A stretch of DNA of 56,283 bases from Candidatus Microgenomates bacterium. GTDB lineage: Bacteria > Patescibacteriota > Microgenomatia > Levybacterales > UBA12049. This document shows, piece after piece, positions 25,161 to 53,366 of this stretch. Positions within the stretch are counted from its first letter, which is position 1, and every line of letters starts with the position of its first letter. The translations under genes and the position numbers were made by a program. The notes under the pieces are model-generated. The model did not search any database, had not been told where the DNA came from, and was given only the letters and a program-made list of their open reading frames with translations. Location: assembly GCA_025451195.1 (NCBI GenBank), contig JANWKV010000038.1:1-56283 (forward strand), given 5' to 3'.

Positions 25161-26906
25161 TTATTGTAATACCTGATTAAGTGCATTAATATTTTCTTGG
25201 GAAGAGTCAAGCTGTAAAGATTTTTGAGCATATTCTTTCGCTTCTTCTTTTTTTCCGTTTGCAAAAAGTGCCAGTGCCATAAGCTGGTTAAGTTTTGCGC
25301 TGTTTGGAAAAATTGGAAGCGCCTGGTTTATAAAGTTTATTGTATTTGTGGGAGTATCTGTTAACGAATAAATTAATGCAATATTTTCATACGCGGCAGA
25401 CGTTGGCGAAAGTTTAATTGATTTTTCGTAGTAAGACTTTGCACTATTGTAGTCTCCTTCCTGTGCATAAATTGATCCAATATTATTTAATGTCCACAAA
25501 TTATTTGGCGCAAATTTTATCGCTTGTAAAAATTCTTCCTTTGCTTTTTCATGTTGCCCGTCGTTGTATAAAGCAACACCATAATTATTAAGAAGTTCGG
25601 AAGAATTGGCAGATAATATTATGTCGTGTCCAAAAAGGGTTAGTGGATTTTCCCAATCGATTGTTCTTATAAATGTACGTAGAAAAAAGAAAACAAAAAA
25701 TAACAAATAACACAAGAATGTTAGCATAGTGTTTCGTGAATTGTTTGAATTTAAAATTTTTATAAAAATCAGTGAAAAAATACCAAAAACTCCAATTAAC
25801 GGAAGGTAAAGCCATCTCTCCTCAATAGTAAAATCAAGCGGAATAATATTTAAGACGATTGACAAAGACAATAAAAACCACAACGAAAAGAATATAAGAA
25901 TTTTCCTATCTACTTTTGATCTTAATAAAATAATTCCAAGAGATATAAAAATTAATAGAACAACCGGAAGAAGAAAGTAAAAACGGTAATCATTAATATT
26001 TGTTATTAAATCAACTTGAGAAATATGAAGAGTTACGGGATAAAAAATTAAACGGATATATGAAAATAATTCGTAAGGAACCGTTAATAATCGCTGTACA
26101 AGAGTTGCGTGAGCAATAGGAATTGGGGATAAATTCTGGTCTGCCGACAAAGTTGCCACATGGAAACGAAAAAAAGAATATACACCGGCAGATAATCCGC
26201 AGGATACCAAAAGAGGTATTAATTTTTTTCTGAAAAAAATCAGTGACAACATAATTACAAAAACAATAGAAAAAACTCCTGACTCTTTGGAGAAAAGAGA
26301 TCCGAGTGTTGTTAAAAAGATAACAAGAAGATTTAAAATTGAAATTTCTTTTTTTAAGCAAAACTTTAAAGCCGTAATAATTGAAACGAGAATAAAAAAT
26401 ACATACATTAATTCAGTCGTTGCGGAAACGTAAGCAACACTTTCCACATTTGCAGGTTGTACCAAAAATAAAACCGATGCAAAAAATGCAGAGGTTCTTG
26501 AAAATTTATATTTCCTTAAATCCAAAAGATTCTTAATTAAGAAAAATATGAGTATTGAATTAGTTATATGCAAGCTAACATCAAACAAATGATATCCAAA
26601 AGGATTTAATCCCCAAATAGAGTATGTAAGGGAAAAAACAACATCCAGTAACGGTCTGTAAAATGCACCGGATAATGCAAGCTGTCCCCCGCCGGTTGAG
26701 AATGTACTGGCCGTAAAAAAATACGAAATATTTTCCAGGTGAGCAATTAAAGGATTATTTAGAATCTGATCCTGATCATCCCAGACAAATCCGTTAAATA
26801 ACACCCTAAAATAAACAATTATTCCAATAAAAATTAAATATGTAACCAAGTAAACAGAAGCTGAATTTTCAATTTTACGTATTATTGAAATTACATTTTC
26901 TTTCAT
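25161..26906 (-). CDS. Polytopic membrane protein with C-terminal TPR repeats (TMTC/O-mannosyltransferase-like)
   Basis: About 581 residues from ATG 26906. A TTG ten codons upstream is possible but not needed. About ten membrane helices fill residues 10-400, including the external motif FVWDDQDQILNNP (the acidic pair of GT-C glycosyltransferases), then EERWLYLPLIGVFGI. Several TPR units follow (LLNNYGVALYNDGQHEKAKE, WTLNNIGSIYAQEGDYNSAK). This resembles bacterial relatives of TMTC protein O-mannosyltransferases (DUF1736), which use lipid-linked sugars. Likely a surface glycosyltransferase; the acceptor is unknown. Confidence 0.78.
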   Translation of the reverse strand: MKENVISIIRKIENSASVYLVTYLIFIGIIVYFRVLFNGFVWDDQDQILNNPLIAHLENISYFFTASTFSTGGGQLALSGAFYRPLLDVVFSLTYSIWGLNPFGYHLFDVSLHITNSILIFFLIKNLLDLRKYKFSRTSAFFASVLFLVQPANVESVAYVSATTELMYVFFILVSIITALKFCLKKEISILNLLVIFLTTLGSLFSKESGVFSIVFVIMLSLIFFRKKLIPLLVSCGLSAGVYSFFRFHVATLSADQNLSPIPIAHATLVQRLLTVPYELFSYIRLIFYPVTLHISQVDLITNINDYRFYFLLPVVLLIFISLGIILLRSKVDRKILIFFSLWFLLSLSIVLNIIPLDFTIEERWLYLPLIGVFGIFSLIFIKILNSNNSRNTMLTFLCYLLFFVFFFLRTFIRTIDWENPLTLFGHDIILSANSSELLNNYGVALYNDGQHEKAKEEFLQAIKFAPNNLWTLNNIGSIYAQEGDYNSAKSYYEKSIKLSPTSAAYENIALIYSLTDTPTNTINFINQALPIFPNSAKLNQLMALALFANGKKEEAKEYAQKSLQLDSSQENINALNQVLQ

Positions 26907-26965
26907 TAAATTCAGTATATCATTTGTAAATATCAATAAAAATTAAATATAAATTTTAATACGTA

Positions 26966-26994
26966 TTGACAAAAACTTACCAATAGCGTATTTT
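26966..26994 (+). promoter_or_regulatory. Promoter of the cobalamin-riboswitch operon
   Basis: Consensus TTGACA (26966-26971), exactly 17 bases, then TATTTT (26989-26994). It starts transcription about 15 bases before the cobalamin aptamer. Good match at -35, moderate at -10. Confidence 0.65.
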
Positions 26995-27013
26995 GTAAAT
27001 TACAACACAAGGC

Positions 27014-27201
27014 GTAAAGGTGTCGCAAGACATAAAAGGAATCACGTCCCGAAGGAAATTTTTTCTTAGGGATCCCGGTAATAACAATTATCGGGAGCGA
27101 AAATCCGTGGCTATGCCGTAACTGTCCTCATAAGTCAAAAGACGAATGAGGATCCCGCTTAGCTTTTCTAAGTGGGATACAGCCAGAAAACTATCCTTTA
27201 C
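27014..27201 (+). ncRNA. Cobalamin (B12) riboswitch aptamer
   Basis: The closing stem is exact: GTAAAGG (27014-27020) with CCTTTAC (27195-27201). The conserved core follows in the expected order: AAAAGGAATCACG, then GCGAAAATCCGTGGCT, then the signature GCCGTAACTGT (27115-27125; consensus GCCRCACUGU-like), then a GATCCCGC...GTGGGAT stem, and ACAGCCAGAAAACTATCC near the 3' end. Two extra hairpins (about 27047-27098) replace the usual small loop of the central domain. Bound cobalamin normally turns expression off. It is followed by hairpins and a terminator before the gene. Confidence 0.82.
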
Positions 27202-27250
27202 ACTCTTCTTGCTTAATCTTGAGTTTACAAAAGATTAGGTTTGAAGATTT

Positions 27251-27336
27251 TATACCCGTAGGGTATACATTATCTTGAGTTGGACTTTCGAGCAAAAGTC
27301 CGAGGCTATATTTAATCCTCGAGGAGGATTTTTTTA
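27251..27336 (+). terminator. Hairpins and rho-independent terminator of the B12 riboswitch
   Basis: TATACCC-GTA-GGGTATA (27251-27267), GGACTTT...AAAGTCC (27282-27301) and a terminator AATCCTC-GAG-GAGGATT (27314-27330) with T-run to 27336. The terminator lies before the ATG at 27370, so the aptamer can control transcription by attenuation. The two upstream hairpins could be the competing antiterminator fold, but I could not fold them. Confidence 0.8.
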
Positions 27337-27369
27337 TTCTAATACCTCCTTCTTTTGCCGCGTAAATTT

Positions 27370-27960
27370 ATGGATATCAAAAATCTTAAAAAGTATTTTA
27401 GCTCGCCTTTTATTGTAATTGCCGCAATATGTTTTATTATAGGCGGGATATTACTTCTTTTACCGCAGAATAAAAAATCACAAAAAGTTCAAAATACTAA
27501 AAGCATAATCGTTAACAGGCAGCAATCGACAAAAACGCCAATCCCGTCAATAACTCCGGCTTTATTACAAAAAACAACAAAACAGGCACAACTGCCTTCC
27601 TCAACCCCAACTCCGACAATTGCTCAAATAAATCCAACTTCTCAGCCAACACCAACAACTGTTTCGAACAACAATATTTTTAAACTGCAAATCAATGATC
27701 CTAATGGCAATTTTTCTTTTTCTTTCACGTACCAAGGCGGCACAAACCCCTGTTCTATCTTAAATAATGCAAAAAATAGCGGGGATATAAAATCTGTAAC
27801 CATTAACCATTACGGACCACCCCTCAACAGCGATTATGTTAAAGAAATAAATGGATTTTCAGATAATTGGAATTTTTCAATCAACGGCAATTCTATGCCA
27901 AAAGGATGCTCAAATTATAATTTAAACTCAGGAGATAATGTTTTATGGAAATATAATTAA
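27370..27960 (+). CDS. Membrane-anchored DUF4430 protein (transcobalamin C-terminal-like domain)
   Basis: 196 residues from ATG 27370. A cytosolic tail, one membrane helix (about 10-35), a long Thr/Pro/Ser/Gln linker and a C-terminal domain (about 100-196) beginning IFKLQINDPNGNFSFSFTYQ. It continues CSILNNAKNSGDIKSVTIN, with YVKEINGFSDNWNFSINGNS and a final GDNVLWKYN. That pattern is DUF4430, the fold of the C-terminal domain of transcobalamin and intrinsic factor that covers bound cobalamin. It is the first gene after a cobalamin riboswitch and terminator. It probably contributes half of a surface corrinoid-binding pocket. Confidence 0.78.
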   Translation: MDIKNLKKYFSSPFIVIAAICFIIGGILLLLPQNKKSQKVQNTKSIIVNRQQSTKTPIPSITPALLQKTTKQAQLPSSTPTPTIAQINPTSQPTPTTVSNNNIFKLQINDPNGNFSFSFTYQGGTNPCSILNNAKNSGDIKSVTINHYGPPLNSDYVKEINGFSDNWNFSINGNSMPKGCSNYNLNSGDNVLWKYN

Positions 27961-27962
27961 AA

Positions 27963-29306
27963 ATGAAAAAAATTTTGATCATCATCATTTTATTTTTACT
28001 GATAATTTCATCCTCAAAGCAAGTTTTTGCATCTAATCAACCTGCCATTGATTCAGGTATCTCTTATCTTAAATCCCAACAGCTCAAGGATGGAAATATA
28101 GATGGTTTTAGCGGAGTAACAGACTGGGCTGCTATGGCTTTTTCCGCAGATAATTTAGACATTAATACAATTGCAAGTACCAGTGGGCAAACTCTTCTTT
28201 CTTTCCTTAAATCCGATACGTTAACCAACTCATCTTCTTCAAACGACTGGTCAAGAAGAATTCTTATGGCTACTGCGGCAAACCAAAATCCCTATGATTT
28301 CTCAGGAACAAATTTAGTTGCCGGACTGGAAACATACTACAACAATAACCAGATTGGAAGTACAACAGCGGACAACGATGACATGTTTGCTCTTCTTGCC
28401 CTTCTTGCAAGTAAAGTTGACATTACAAATTCTATAATTACCGATGTAACTTCATTTATTATTTCCCACCAACACTCAGACGGAGGATTTAGCTACTCAA
28501 CCGACCCGTCAACCGGAAGCGATATAGACGACACAGCCGCGGCAATAATGGCTCTTAATTTTGCAAAATTGCAGAACGTAAATGTAAATAATTTGCAGTC
28601 GTCAATCAACAGCGCAAAAACATACATTCTTTCCAACCAAAACTCAGACGGAGGATTTGCTTATGACCCAAATCCCAGCACCAGTTGGGATACTACATCA
28701 AATGTTTCTACAACATCTTGGGTTGTTATGGCATTTTCTTCTTTAGGGCTTGATGGGACTCAAGAGTTTTCCAACGCACAAGATTATATTATCTCTACTC
28801 AAGAATCGGACGGATCATTCCCTTATCAACCTATTTATCCGCCGGGCGATACATTTGACAGTTCTTATGCTCTACTTGCTTTAGAAAATGTTTTTTGGCC
28901 AATCCATGTTTTTTCCGGCACTGTCCCTACGTTTACTGTTACATCTGCTCCAACGCCAACGCTAACGCTAACGCTAACTCCTACTCCTATGGATATGCCA
29001 TCATCAAATTCAAATGATTCAGACCCGACACAAACTCCAACACCAACCGTAACGCCTACTCCGACAATTCCGGCAACACAAACCCCTACAGCATCAGACT
29101 CTTATCAAGCAACCGACCTTCTAACAAACACTCCAACACTCTCACCTTCACCTACTGTTTTTCAGCAAGTTCTAGGAACGCAAACTTCAATAGGAGATGG
29201 AAATAAAAACTCTTTAAACATTAAGCTTATGTTCGCGCTTGTTTTCTTTGGACTTGGCATAGCATCATCCGGTTTTTATGTATTTAAGAAGATTAAAAAA
29301 ATATAA
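27963..29306 (+). CDS. Secreted, membrane-anchored alpha/alpha barrel protein (prenyltransferase/squalene-cyclase-like repeats, transcobalamin N-terminal-like)
   Basis: 447 residues: a signal peptide (1-23), then a repeat domain with SYLKSQQLKDGNIDGFSGVT, SHQHSDGGFSYSTDP, SNQNSDGGFAYDPNP and STQESDGSFPYQPIYPPGD. These are the DGGF-type repeats of alpha/alpha barrels shared by squalene cyclases and the N-terminal domain of intrinsic factor and transcobalamin. A long Thr/Pro stretch and a C-terminal membrane helix (about 423-442) tether it outside. It starts two bases after the DUF4430 gene, so both are cotranslated under the B12 riboswitch. Together they look like a transcobalamin split into two anchored proteins. 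No cyclase active-site DxDD motif is seen. Confidence 0.75.
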   Translation: MKKILIIIILFLLIISSSKQVFASNQPAIDSGISYLKSQQLKDGNIDGFSGVTDWAAMAFSADNLDINTIASTSGQTLLSFLKSDTLTNSSSSNDWSRRILMATAANQNPYDFSGTNLVAGLETYYNNNQIGSTTADNDDMFALLALLASKVDITNSIITDVTSFIISHQHSDGGFSYSTDPSTGSDIDDTAAAIMALNFAKLQNVNVNNLQSSINSAKTYILSNQNSDGGFAYDPNPSTSWDTTSNVSTTSWVVMAFSSLGLDGTQEFSNAQDYIISTQESDGSFPYQPIYPPGDTFDSSYALLALENVFWPIHVFSGTVPTFTVTSAPTPTLTLTLTPTPMDMPSSNSNDSDPTQTPTPTVTPTPTIPATQTPTASDSYQATDLLTNTPTLSPSPTVFQQVLGTQTSIGDGNKNSLNIKLMFALVFFGLGIASSGFYVFKKIKKI

Positions 29307-29359
29307 AAACATTTACAGATTAAAATACATATGATACATTCATCTTTACAAAGTAAAAT

Positions 29360-29881
29360 ATGAAAAAAATTAACAATCTTATGAATCCATTCCTTATTAT
29401 TTTTATTGGGGCGTCTTTGAGGCTTATTCCGCATATCCCAAATTTTGCGCCAATTACCGCAATGGCTCTTTTTGGAGGTGCTTATCTAAACAAAAAATAC
29501 GCTCTGATTGTCCCAATTGCGGCAATGGTTATATCCGACATTTTTTTAGGATTTAATGCAAGTACACCTATGGTGTACACAAGTTTCTTTATTAGCGGGC
29601 TCATTGGTTTATGGCTAAAAAACCATAAAAACCTTCATTCGGTTATCAGCGCCACGCTTTTTTCTTCAATAATTTTTTTTATACTGACAAATTTTAATTT
29701 TTGGTATGCAACCGCTTTATATCCTAAAACATTTAACGGCATGATAGATGCATACGTAATGGCTATTCCTTTCTTTAGAAATACTGTTTTGGGTGATTTA
29801 TTCTATACGGGAGTTTTCTTTGGAGGATATGAACTTGTTTTACACTTTTTTAAATCAAAAAAACCTGCGTATTCAAAATAA
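29360..29881 (+). CDS. DUF6580 family membrane protein (putative S-component-like transporter)
   Basis: 173 residues with about five membrane helices. Conserved features: RLIPHIPNFAPITAMALFGG near the start, VPIAAMVISDIFLGF and TPMVYTSFFISGLIGLWLKN. This is the DUF6580 family, described as putative transport proteins similar to the substrate-binding S component of ECF vitamin transporters. No ECF ATPase or T component lies in the window. It is last in the cobalamin-riboswitch operon (53 bases after the barrel protein), so corrinoid uptake is the natural guess. The specific substrate is inference. Confidence 0.7.
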   Translation: MKKINNLMNPFLIIFIGASLRLIPHIPNFAPITAMALFGGAYLNKKYALIVPIAAMVISDIFLGFNASTPMVYTSFFISGLIGLWLKNHKNLHSVISATLFSSIIFFILTNFNFWYATALYPKTFNGMIDAYVMAIPFFRNTVLGDLFYTGVFFGGYELVLHFFKSKKPAYSK

Positions 29882-29940: not shown

Positions 29941-30471
29941 CTACTTTAGCATCGAAGAATAATCTGTAAACTTCTTACCCGCCGGAAGAGTAAATACGGA
30001 ATCGTTTACAGCTTGCGGTTTGCAATATTGTTTATATTTTTCAATAATGCCTATAACTTCCTGCTCCATTTGAGCAATACTATTTTGTGAGGAAATCTCA
30101 GAAGGTTCGTTTACCATCGCTGAAAAAACATTATTCCAGAAATAAATTTTTTTATCCTTTAATAAAATACTCCCTGTATCTATTATTGTCTTGCCTTTTA
30201 TATTGGCGCGAAGCGTTCCGTTTTTAATAAAAGCCGTAATTTGCCGTCCTGAGTCATCGGTTAAATCACAGGCAAGATTTGATTTTGTTGCTAATATTTC
30301 ATTGACCGTATCAAAACTTCCGCTGTTTGTTGCAACATTTTGCTGTGAATTTGAACTTATCTGAGAAACAGGTTTTGCCAAATTGTAATCAACAAAAAAC
30401 ATGTTCTTTCCCGCAACTGCGGCAATTATTAAAAGGACAAATCCAAAACAAATTAGAATCTTTCTCTCCAT
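29941..30471 (-). CDS. Secreted protein of unknown function with signal anchor
   Basis: 176 residues: an N-terminal helix (about 5-22) as signal anchor, an Asn/Gln/Ser-rich linker, then a beta-rich region (ACDLTDDSGRQITAFIKNGT, KTIIDTGSILLKDKKIYFWN) and a C-terminal helix with two Cys (CD and YCKP) that could pair. The pattern is common in CPR exported proteins but I assign no family. It is convergent with the DUF6580 gene. Confidence 0.6.
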   Translation of the reverse strand: MERKILICFGFVLLIIAAVAGKNMFFVDYNLAKPVSQISSNSQQNVATNSGSFDTVNEILATKSNLACDLTDDSGRQITAFIKNGTLRANIKGKTIIDTGSILLKDKKIYFWNNVFSAMVNEPSEISSQNSIAQMEQEVIGIIEKYKQYCKPQAVNDSVFTLPAGKKFTDYSSMLK

Positions 30472-51962: not shown

Positions 51963-51970
51963 ATATTTAA

Positions 51971-52078
51971 ATCAAGAGTGATGGATAGAGGTTTGGTTCT
52001 TTGACCCATCCGGCAACCGACAAGAAACGGTGCCACACCCAAAAAGGATTTGTCCTTAAATTAAGCGAAGGAAAAATT
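51971..52078 (+). ncRNA. SAM-I (S-box) riboswitch aptamer upstream of methionine synthase
   Basis: The sequence follows the S-box order: ATCAAGAG (51971-51978), then a stem-loop with GATGGATAGAGG, TTTGACCCATCCGGCAACC, then ACGGTGCCACACCC, and a final AAGGATTTGTCCTT-type stem. ATCAAGAG, CCGGCAACC and GGTGCCA are hallmark blocks. When SAM is bound, the following terminator should form, stopping expression of the downstream methionine genes. A second S-box lies before metK (56250-56283). Confidence 0.85.
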
Positions 52079-52091
52079 TTTTTTGTTATTT

Positions 52092-52205: not shown

Positions 52206-52275
52206 TGCAGATCTCGCTGACACGAAGTGAGGCTTAGATATGCATAATCCGCCGAAGCCTTGGCGAAGGTGGATA
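52206..52275. repeat. Palindromic repeat debris between terminator and methionine synthase
   Basis: GATCTCGCTGACACGAAGTG and TCCGCCGAAGCCTTGGCGAA resemble the CGAAGTGAG and GCGAAGG repeat family found elsewhere in the window. The second has an inverted arrangement, TCCGCC...GGCGAAGGTGGA. Probably dispersed repeats that landed downstream of the terminator. Confidence 0.45.
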
Positions 52276-52286
52276 TTGGAAATAAT

Positions 52287-53366
52287 ATGAAACTCAAACA
52301 AAATAAAATACTCACAGCGATTGTTGGAAGTTATCCAAAACCAAAATATGTCTTTAAAAAATCGGGCAGGAAGCTGCTTGATAGTGTTGGTCTTGATTTT
52401 TATGCTGCGGAAAAAAATTCTGATAAAAAAACTTTTAAAAAACTTTTAGACAAAGCATCAATAAATGCAATAAAAGATCAAAATTCGGCCAACATAGATT
52501 TTATAACAGACGGAGAAGAAAGAAGAGGCCATTATGTTTTGCATATTCTCAAAGGATTAAAAGGGATTAACTTTAAAAAACTTTCAACAATAGAAATCAG
52601 AGGAGGTACTTACAAAAGAGTTGTCCCAACAATCGTCGACCAAATCAAATACGGATCTCCAATCGTTGTAAAAGAATTCTTGTTTACAAAAAAACATGCA
52701 AAAAATATTGCAAAAATAGGGCTCCCCGGCCCTTCAACAGTAATTGATTGCGTTGCGGATGAATTTTATAATGGAAATCAGGAAAAACTTGCTTTTGATT
52801 ACGCAAATGCTATTCGAAACGAAGTAAAAGCATTAATTGATGTCGGATGTAAAGTGATCCAATTCGATGACCCGGTTCTTCTTAGATATCCAAAAAAAGC
52901 TAAGGACTGGGGTTTAAAAGCACTTCAAGCGTGTTTTAAGGGACTGGAAAATAAAGCATATTTTATTGTTCATATTTGCTGCGGATACCCAAATAAACCT
53001 CTTGAGAAAAAAGGAATTTCTTACAAAGCAAACAGTAATTATTACAAAGACATTTTAAACTGGTTGTCAAAATCAACTTTGGACGCAGTATCTATTGAAG
53101 GAGCCCAAAGCAATCTTGATTTATCAAGTTTATCCTCCATAGGCAAAAAAACAGTAATGCTTGGCGTTTTAGATGTTGGAAATAATAAAGTCGAATCTGT
53201 TTCCTCTTTGGTAAATAGAGGAAAGGATGCTCTTAAATATATTAAAAAAGAACAACTGATACTAGGGCCAGACTGCGGAATGCTTGAGTTAACTAGATTT
53301 TCAGCAAAGAAAAAATTAGCTAATCTTGCAAAAGTGGCAAAAATTCTTAATGGAGGTGAGAATTAA
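52287..53366 (+). CDS. Core methionine synthase (MetE C-terminal domain only)
   Basis: 359 residues from ATG 52287; an upstream frame adds nine residues from repeat DNA, so the shorter form is chosen. It opens LTAIVGSYPKPKYVF and has DFITDGEERRGHYVLHILKG, IQFDDPVLLRYP, the zinc-ligand block FIVHICCGYPN (His and Cys), IEGAQSN (Glu) and GPDCGM (Cys). The N-terminal folate-binding domain of MetE is absent. Core enzymes of this type (Mes family in archaea and Dehalococcoides) take methyl groups from corrinoid proteins or methylcobalamin. It methylates homocysteine. First gene after a SAM riboswitch. Confidence 0.85.
   Translation: MKLKQNKILTAIVGSYPKPKYVFKKSGRKLLDSVGLDFYAAEKNSDKKTFKKLLDKASINAIKDQNSANIDFITDGEERRGHYVLHILKGLKGINFKKLSTIEIRGGTYKRVVPTIVDQIKYGSPIVVKEFLFTKKHAKNIAKIGLPGPSTVIDCVADEFYNGNQEKLAFDYANAIRNEVKALIDVGCKVIQFDDPVLLRYPKKAKDWGLKALQACFKGLENKAYFIVHICCGYPNKPLEKKGISYKANSNYYKDILNWLSKSTLDAVSIEGAQSNLDLSSLSSIGKKTVMLGVLDVGNNKVESVSSLVNRGKDALKYIKKEQLILGPDCGMLELTRFSAKKKLANLAKVAKILNGGEN

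Follow-up and report, generated by a model that had tools for sequence, protein, structure and literature searches.

A putative B12-controlled operon encoding a split transcobalamin-type carrier and a candidate transporter in a Microgenomates bacterium

The operon and its products

The window (the whole stretch of DNA that was analyzed, 56,283 nucleotides (nt) of contig JANWKV010000038.1 from the Candidatus Microgenomates bacterium assembly GCA_025451195.1) contains three genes on the + strand, at 27370-27960, 27963-29306, and 29360-29881, that are preceded by a putative cobalamin (B12) riboswitch. We consider it likely that the operon is a B12-repressed unit for the capture and import of extracellular corrinoids via a split transcobalamin-type carrier and the membrane protein DUF6580. 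The products comprise 196, 447, and 173 amino acids (aa), respectively; a TTG at 27355 is a possible alternative start for gene 1. As an earlier note on this DNA had stated, the genes have adjoining ends, with gaps of 2 nt (genes 1 and 2) and 53 nt (genes 2 and 3). The operon is isolated: a divergent gene (25161-26936, - strand) lies before it and a convergent gene (29941-30471, - strand) after it. The following features were assigned:

26966-26994, + strand: promoter-like site TTGACA-17-TATTTT (10 of 12 consensus positions)
27014-27201, + strand: aptamer of a cobalamin riboswitch of the adenosylcobalamin (AdoCbl)-II type, P1 to P1, from a match to covariance model R1 (below) and core motifs
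27047-27096, + strand: two inserted hairpins within aptamer P4/L5, from self-complementary TCCCGAAGG...GGGA and TCCCGGTAAT...ATCGGGA
27126-27178, + strand: two hairpins in a P6 extension, between ACTGT and ACAGCCAGAAAAC, from the sequence and the minimum-free-energy fold
27282-27301, + strand: separate hairpin (stem GGACTTT/AAAGTCC) with the loop CGAGCA, candidate P13/L13 kissing-loop partner of L5
27314-27335, + strand: intrinsic terminator AATCCTC-GAG-GAGGATT (stem 27314-27330) plus T run, the expression platform
27370-27960, + strand: gene 1, with an N-terminal transmembrane anchor (ca. 27406-27462), a Thr/Pro linker, and a DUF4430 domain (27667-27957), from Pfam, AlphaFold2 (AF2), and Foldseek
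27963-29306, + strand: gene 2, with a signal peptide, an alpha/alpha barrel (28032-28937), a Thr/Pro linker, and a C-terminal transmembrane segment (ca. 29226-29285), from Pfam, AF2, and Foldseek
29360-29881, + strand: gene 3, a DUF6580 membrane protein that may transport B12 and is related to the S-component CbrT, from Pfam, a profile match, and genomic context

For gene 1, the earlier note had described an N-terminal anchor, a Thr/Pro linker, and a DUF4430 domain having the fold of the C-terminal domain of transcobalamin, and each of these was recovered. The anchor and linker are evident in the sequence, and Pfam placed DUF4430 at the C-terminus (E = 7.8e-9). The AF2 model of the domain (pLDDT 86) was compared to the PDB using Foldseek. 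Of the 19 matches below E = 0.001, 17 were beta domains of transcobalamin, haptocorrin, or intrinsic factor, proteins that also accounted for all of the top 12; the other two were chains of a single Ruminococcus gnavus protein. The last of these matches was at E = 7.7e-4, and a gap separated it from the next at 0.038. For the transcobalamin-type beta domains, TM-scores reached 0.80, and E-values ranged from 4.6e-5 to 6.9e-4. A weak match to haptocorrin (4kki, E = 0.033) was obtained with the sequence profile. As modeled, the DUF4430 domain has the cobalamin-binding beta-domain fold of transcobalamin, haptocorrin, and intrinsic factor.

Gene 2 matched the Pfam families SQHop_cyclase_C (5.7e-12) and Prenyltrans (7.8e-9). 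Its AF2 model (pLDDT 86) featured helices in alpha/alpha-barrel order and aligned to transcobalamins with a TM-score of ca. 0.62. According to this model, the protein is an alpha/alpha barrel of the transcobalamin N-terminal-domain fold, equally like the squalene cyclases; the fold named in the earlier note was thus found, but it is not specific to the B12 carriers. The Thr/Pro linker and C-terminal anchor described there are also present, the transmembrane segment ending in a basic tail (KKIKKI, read from the sequence). Two distant relatives (L180 and L181) feature LPDTG/LPNTG near the place of this anchor, which fits a cell-surface location of the barrel protein. A search of plasmids and phages for the barrel found none. 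All seven of seven barrels matched the SCO2321 family of membrane proteins (NCBIfam NF053823; best value 1.2e-13), far under its 300-bit cutoff. These sequence matches suggest that SCO2321-family proteins are distant relatives outside this group, with related barrels in Streptomyces.

The leader RNA

The leader contains a cobalamin core, which was read by sequence as CACG/CGTG, GCGAAAATCC, GCCGTAACTGT, and ACAGCCAGAAAAC; the aptamer is enclosed by P1 (27014-27020/27195-27201, GTAAAGG/CCTTTAC). Different inserts occupy the same P4/L5 place in two relatives (L048 and L049). The CGAGCA loop is conserved in the leaders of relatives on differing stems, and the hairpin that bears it is likely the partner of L5.

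A covariance model, R1, was built from ten compact leaders of relatives with the window excluded (an alignment of all 15 was too ragged); most of the source loci pass RF01689. Applied to the 56-kb window, R1 had its best match at 27086-27197 (23.8 bits, E = 2.4e-4), and the runner-up had an E-value of 0.62. The relatives' leaders share the cobalamin core, and nine matches in eight loci exceeded the RF01689 cutoff. When 100 related genomes were scanned with R1, 78 were matched, mostly once; among the matches with E < 1e-4, 71 of 87 were within 3 kb of PduO or DUF6580. Judged by its sequence, the window leader belongs to the AdoCbl-II class of B12 riboswitches (RF01689) and not to RF00174. The cobalamin aptamer of the earlier note therefore stands on its core and the R1 match, with a change of class; the RF00174 search that had been proposed there missed the window leader. 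Compared to RF01689, the core is the same, but P4/L5 and P6 of the window leader each contain two additional hairpins, and the leader falls below detection by the Rfam model, whereas leaders of relatives score over the cutoff.

Three terminators were found versus 0.3 expected, and the last (27314-27330 and its T run) is convincing, in agreement with the terminator that had been placed upstream of the genes. The consensus promoter is present as a TTGACA-17-TATTTT sequence; because 1.9 such sites were expected by chance in shuffles, it is weak evidence and was rejected as proof.

In the leader at L031 4742-4806 (- strand) and similar ones from several relatives, GAGGAG, which forms the terminator's 3' arm and is followed by the T run, is spaced from the ATG like a Shine-Dalgarno sequence. 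Transcription and translation could thus be under the control of a single element there.

A second AdoCbl-II-type riboswitch was observed in relatives, often just after PduO, preceding an orphan Cys-rich protein of ca. 370-580 aa. It was located at L033 7461-7525, L035 10561-10681, L036 4850-4914, L038 5814-5903, L048 7391-7463, L049 3366-3443, and L175 3469-3550, and also at L218, L219, L221, L222, and L223. The orphan protein had no Pfam match (five examples), no NCBIfam match (three examples), and poor PDB matches; it is possibly B12-sparing or B12-handling.

The two halves among relatives

Fifteen barrel loci were collected; one was cut by a contig end, leaving 14 for the analysis of pairing. 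In a class-wide barrel scan, ca. 49 of 60 genomes were matched mainly via the Thr/Pro linker, and these were not counted. A search of relatives for the gene order, as the earlier note had suggested, placed a DUF4430 gene immediately before the barrel gene in all 14 testable loci (at L180, the DUF4430 was identified from the alignment and tree rather than with Pfam). The pair is preceded by an AdoCbl-II switch in 13 of these; none was found at L178. The earlier concern that homologs might lie mostly without B12 riboswitches was not borne out, given these loci and the clustering of AdoCbl-II matches near PduO and DUF6580. The barrel-partnered DUF4430 domains form one clade apart from 23 domains without a barrel (support 95/96), and the pairwise distances of the two halves are correlated (r = 0.75, Mantel p = 2e-4, 14 pairs). 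The barrel protein of L034 has an extra N-terminal DUF4430-like domain (weak match, E = 0.0042) and thus may hold both domains in one protein.

Two other arrangements were noted. At L181 (4780-7404), two DUF4430 genes flank the barrel gene and are followed by DUF6580, near NrdJ. In one relative (L041, 7194-8144), a Peripla_BP_2 (BtuF-like) protein comes after DUF4430-barrel-DUF6580.

Several observations weigh against the proposed capture system. The Rfam cobalamin models RF00174 and RF01689 had no match to the window leader and none over cutoff in its own genome; the hairpins inserted in the aptamer explain why these models miss the window leader. The scan of whole genomes with R1, which used strict filters, also failed to recover the site in the window. 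Part of the distance correlation may stem from the common descent of the genomes. Most relatives with DUF6580 have a DUF4430 protein without a barrel, and, because DUF4430 alone is the common form, the barrel is an addition in some lineages. The barrel profile had no sequence match to transcobalamin and matched squalene-hopene cyclases; the latter also match the barrel structure at least as well as transcobalamins do, and terpene cyclases rank higher. Finally, the window barrel has a DxDD motif (DIDD), as in class II terpene cyclases.

From the last three of these points, it could be argued that B12 is handled by the DUF4430 protein and DUF6580 alone, with the barrel (e.g., a surface enzyme of terpene-cyclase fold or a protein that binds some other ligand) travelling along. 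This appears unlikely to us: the barrel is secreted and tethered, it is strictly paired with one DUF4430 clade under a riboswitch, and transcobalamin alpha domains share its fold. The DxDD motif occurs in only 2 of 15 barrels and is not a family feature; a terpene cyclase was rejected as the identity of the barrel.

Transport, B12 need, and proposed mechanism

The gene 3 product matched DUF6580 in Pfam with E = 3.1e-51. When the DUF6580 profile was compared to the PDB, the sole match was 6fnp_A (E = 3.6e-4 over ca. 110 residues). This entry is ECF-CbrT, an energy-coupling factor (ECF) transporter, and CbrT carries cobalamin and cobinamide (PMC5997447). DUF6580 was matched in 28 of 100 related genomes, one of the 28 being spurious. 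EcfT (CbiQ/EcfT, PF02361) was absent from the window's own genome (85% complete) and from 24 of the 28 genomes in which DUF6580 was matched, some of them nearly complete; FecCD had no match in the own genome. BtuM, a relative of the B12 S-components, acts alone in organisms without an ECF module (PMC6072759). Because neither EcfT nor FecCD was found, a solitary, BtuM-like mode is favored, and DUF6580 is probably a solitary transporter and not part of an ECF complex. The likeness to BtuM is one of mode, by analogy in an EcfT-free genome; that to ECF-CbrT is the profile match. Unlike ECF-CbrT, DUF6580 has no EcfT in the own genome or in most relatives and adjoins surface binders and NrdJ/PduO. 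The S-component likeness proposed in the earlier note is thus retained in the match to CbrT and qualified by the probable lack of an ECF partner.

It is improbable, in our estimation, that DUF6580 is a true ECF S-component whose energizing module has either diverged too far to be recognized or is encoded in sequence missing from the assembly. The similarity to CbrT, the 85% completeness, and the presence of EcfT in 4 of the 28 genomes would fit such a module, but the other 24 genomes and the precedent of BtuM (PMC6072759) argue for the solitary mode.

The DUF6580 genes of Bacteroidota and Ignavibacteria lie beside TonB receptors, and 10 of the 13 loci scanned there had RF00174 switches.

A need for B12 is indicated by the context. 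The typical order in relatives is NrdR - NrdJ - DUF4430 - DUF6580 - PduO, in which NrdJ is the adenosylcobalamin-dependent (class II) ribonucleotide reductase (TIGR02504, over cutoff) and PduO is the cobalamin adenosyltransferase. In the own genome, NrdR, NrdJ, and PduO are together on another contig without DUF4430 and DUF6580, which are in the window. CbiC was found in 0 of 60 genomes, so corrin ring synthesis is probably absent. With NrdJ and PduO present, and with no CbiC, EcfT, or FecCD match in the own genome, B12 is probably scavenged via a solitary transporter. At L033, L035, L037, L042, and L054, the NrdJ reading frames have ca. 1140-1240 aa versus ca. 810 aa; these long frames possibly carry inteins.

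We infer the ligand, the assembly of the halves, the hand-over, the transport, and the direction of regulation, as follows. At low cellular AdoCbl, the leader would let transcription pass the terminator; at high AdoCbl, the AdoCbl-II aptamer would close, turning the operon off. The DUF4430 protein would present a beta domain on its N-terminal membrane anchor and the barrel protein an alpha domain on its C-terminal anchor. Cobalamin would bind the beta domain first, and the barrel would then close over it, as with the separated human transcobalamin halves in vitro. The trapped corrinoid would pass to the CbrT-related DUF6580, working without an ECF motor, and, once imported, would be adenosylated by PduO for NrdJ. 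Separately made halves of human transcobalamin join only with cobalamin present (PMC5599065), and cobalamin binds the beta domain of transcobalamin first (PMC11107200); the closing of two tethered halves on B12 is therefore physically plausible. For the specific arrangement of a two-piece clamp whose separately tethered halves close only around B12 and hand it to an ECF-motor-free DUF6580, we put the chances at about even.

Another nutrient (a cobinamide precursor, a lower-ligand base, cobalt, or a B12-sparing substitute) might be imported under B12 control. B12 riboswitches also regulate cobalt transporters and B12-independent isozymes. Nevertheless, cobalamin itself is the ligand of the proteins that the beta domain matched, and, given that CbiC was missing from 60 relatives, importing just cobalt or a base would probably not suffice for making B12. 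As CbrT carries cobalamin and cobinamide (PMC5997447), we regard a different nutrient as distinctly unlikely. Least credible, to the point of being nearly dismissed, is that both surface proteins serve an epibiont in adhesion or host contact, with an RNA that is decayed or arose by chance: these bacteria often have surface proteins with Thr/Pro linkers, with linker-only matches in many genomes, but the fold match, riboswitch, and co-occurrence data all speak against it.

The split carrier would combine an alpha/alpha barrel and a beta domain, the two folds that a flexible linker joins in the transcobalamin, haptocorrin, and intrinsic factor of animals. The animal carriers are single secreted proteins with the barrel first; the bacterial pair consists of two genes with DUF4430 first, each product is membrane-anchored, and the sequence similarity between the two groups is marginal. 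No paper linking DUF4430 to bacterial B12 uptake or naming DUF6580 was found in the literature, with subscription journals outside the search. If the proposal is true, the folds of the animal B12 carriers would here form a previously undescribed route of B12 uptake. The proposal would explain, in a way that can be tested, how bacteria with small genomes and a probable dependence on hosts get a cofactor that their synthesis of DNA precursors requires and that they are apparently unable to make. It would also suggest a function for two uncharacterized domains (DUF4430 in this setting and DUF6580 across several phyla), and the architecture of animal B12 carriers as two bacterial genes would bear on the origin of those carriers.

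Elsewhere in the window, a SAM-I/IV riboswitch (51964-52088; 41.4 bits, just over cutoff) lies upstream of a 368-aa gene (52260-53366) that, by eye, resembles cobalamin-independent methionine synthase.

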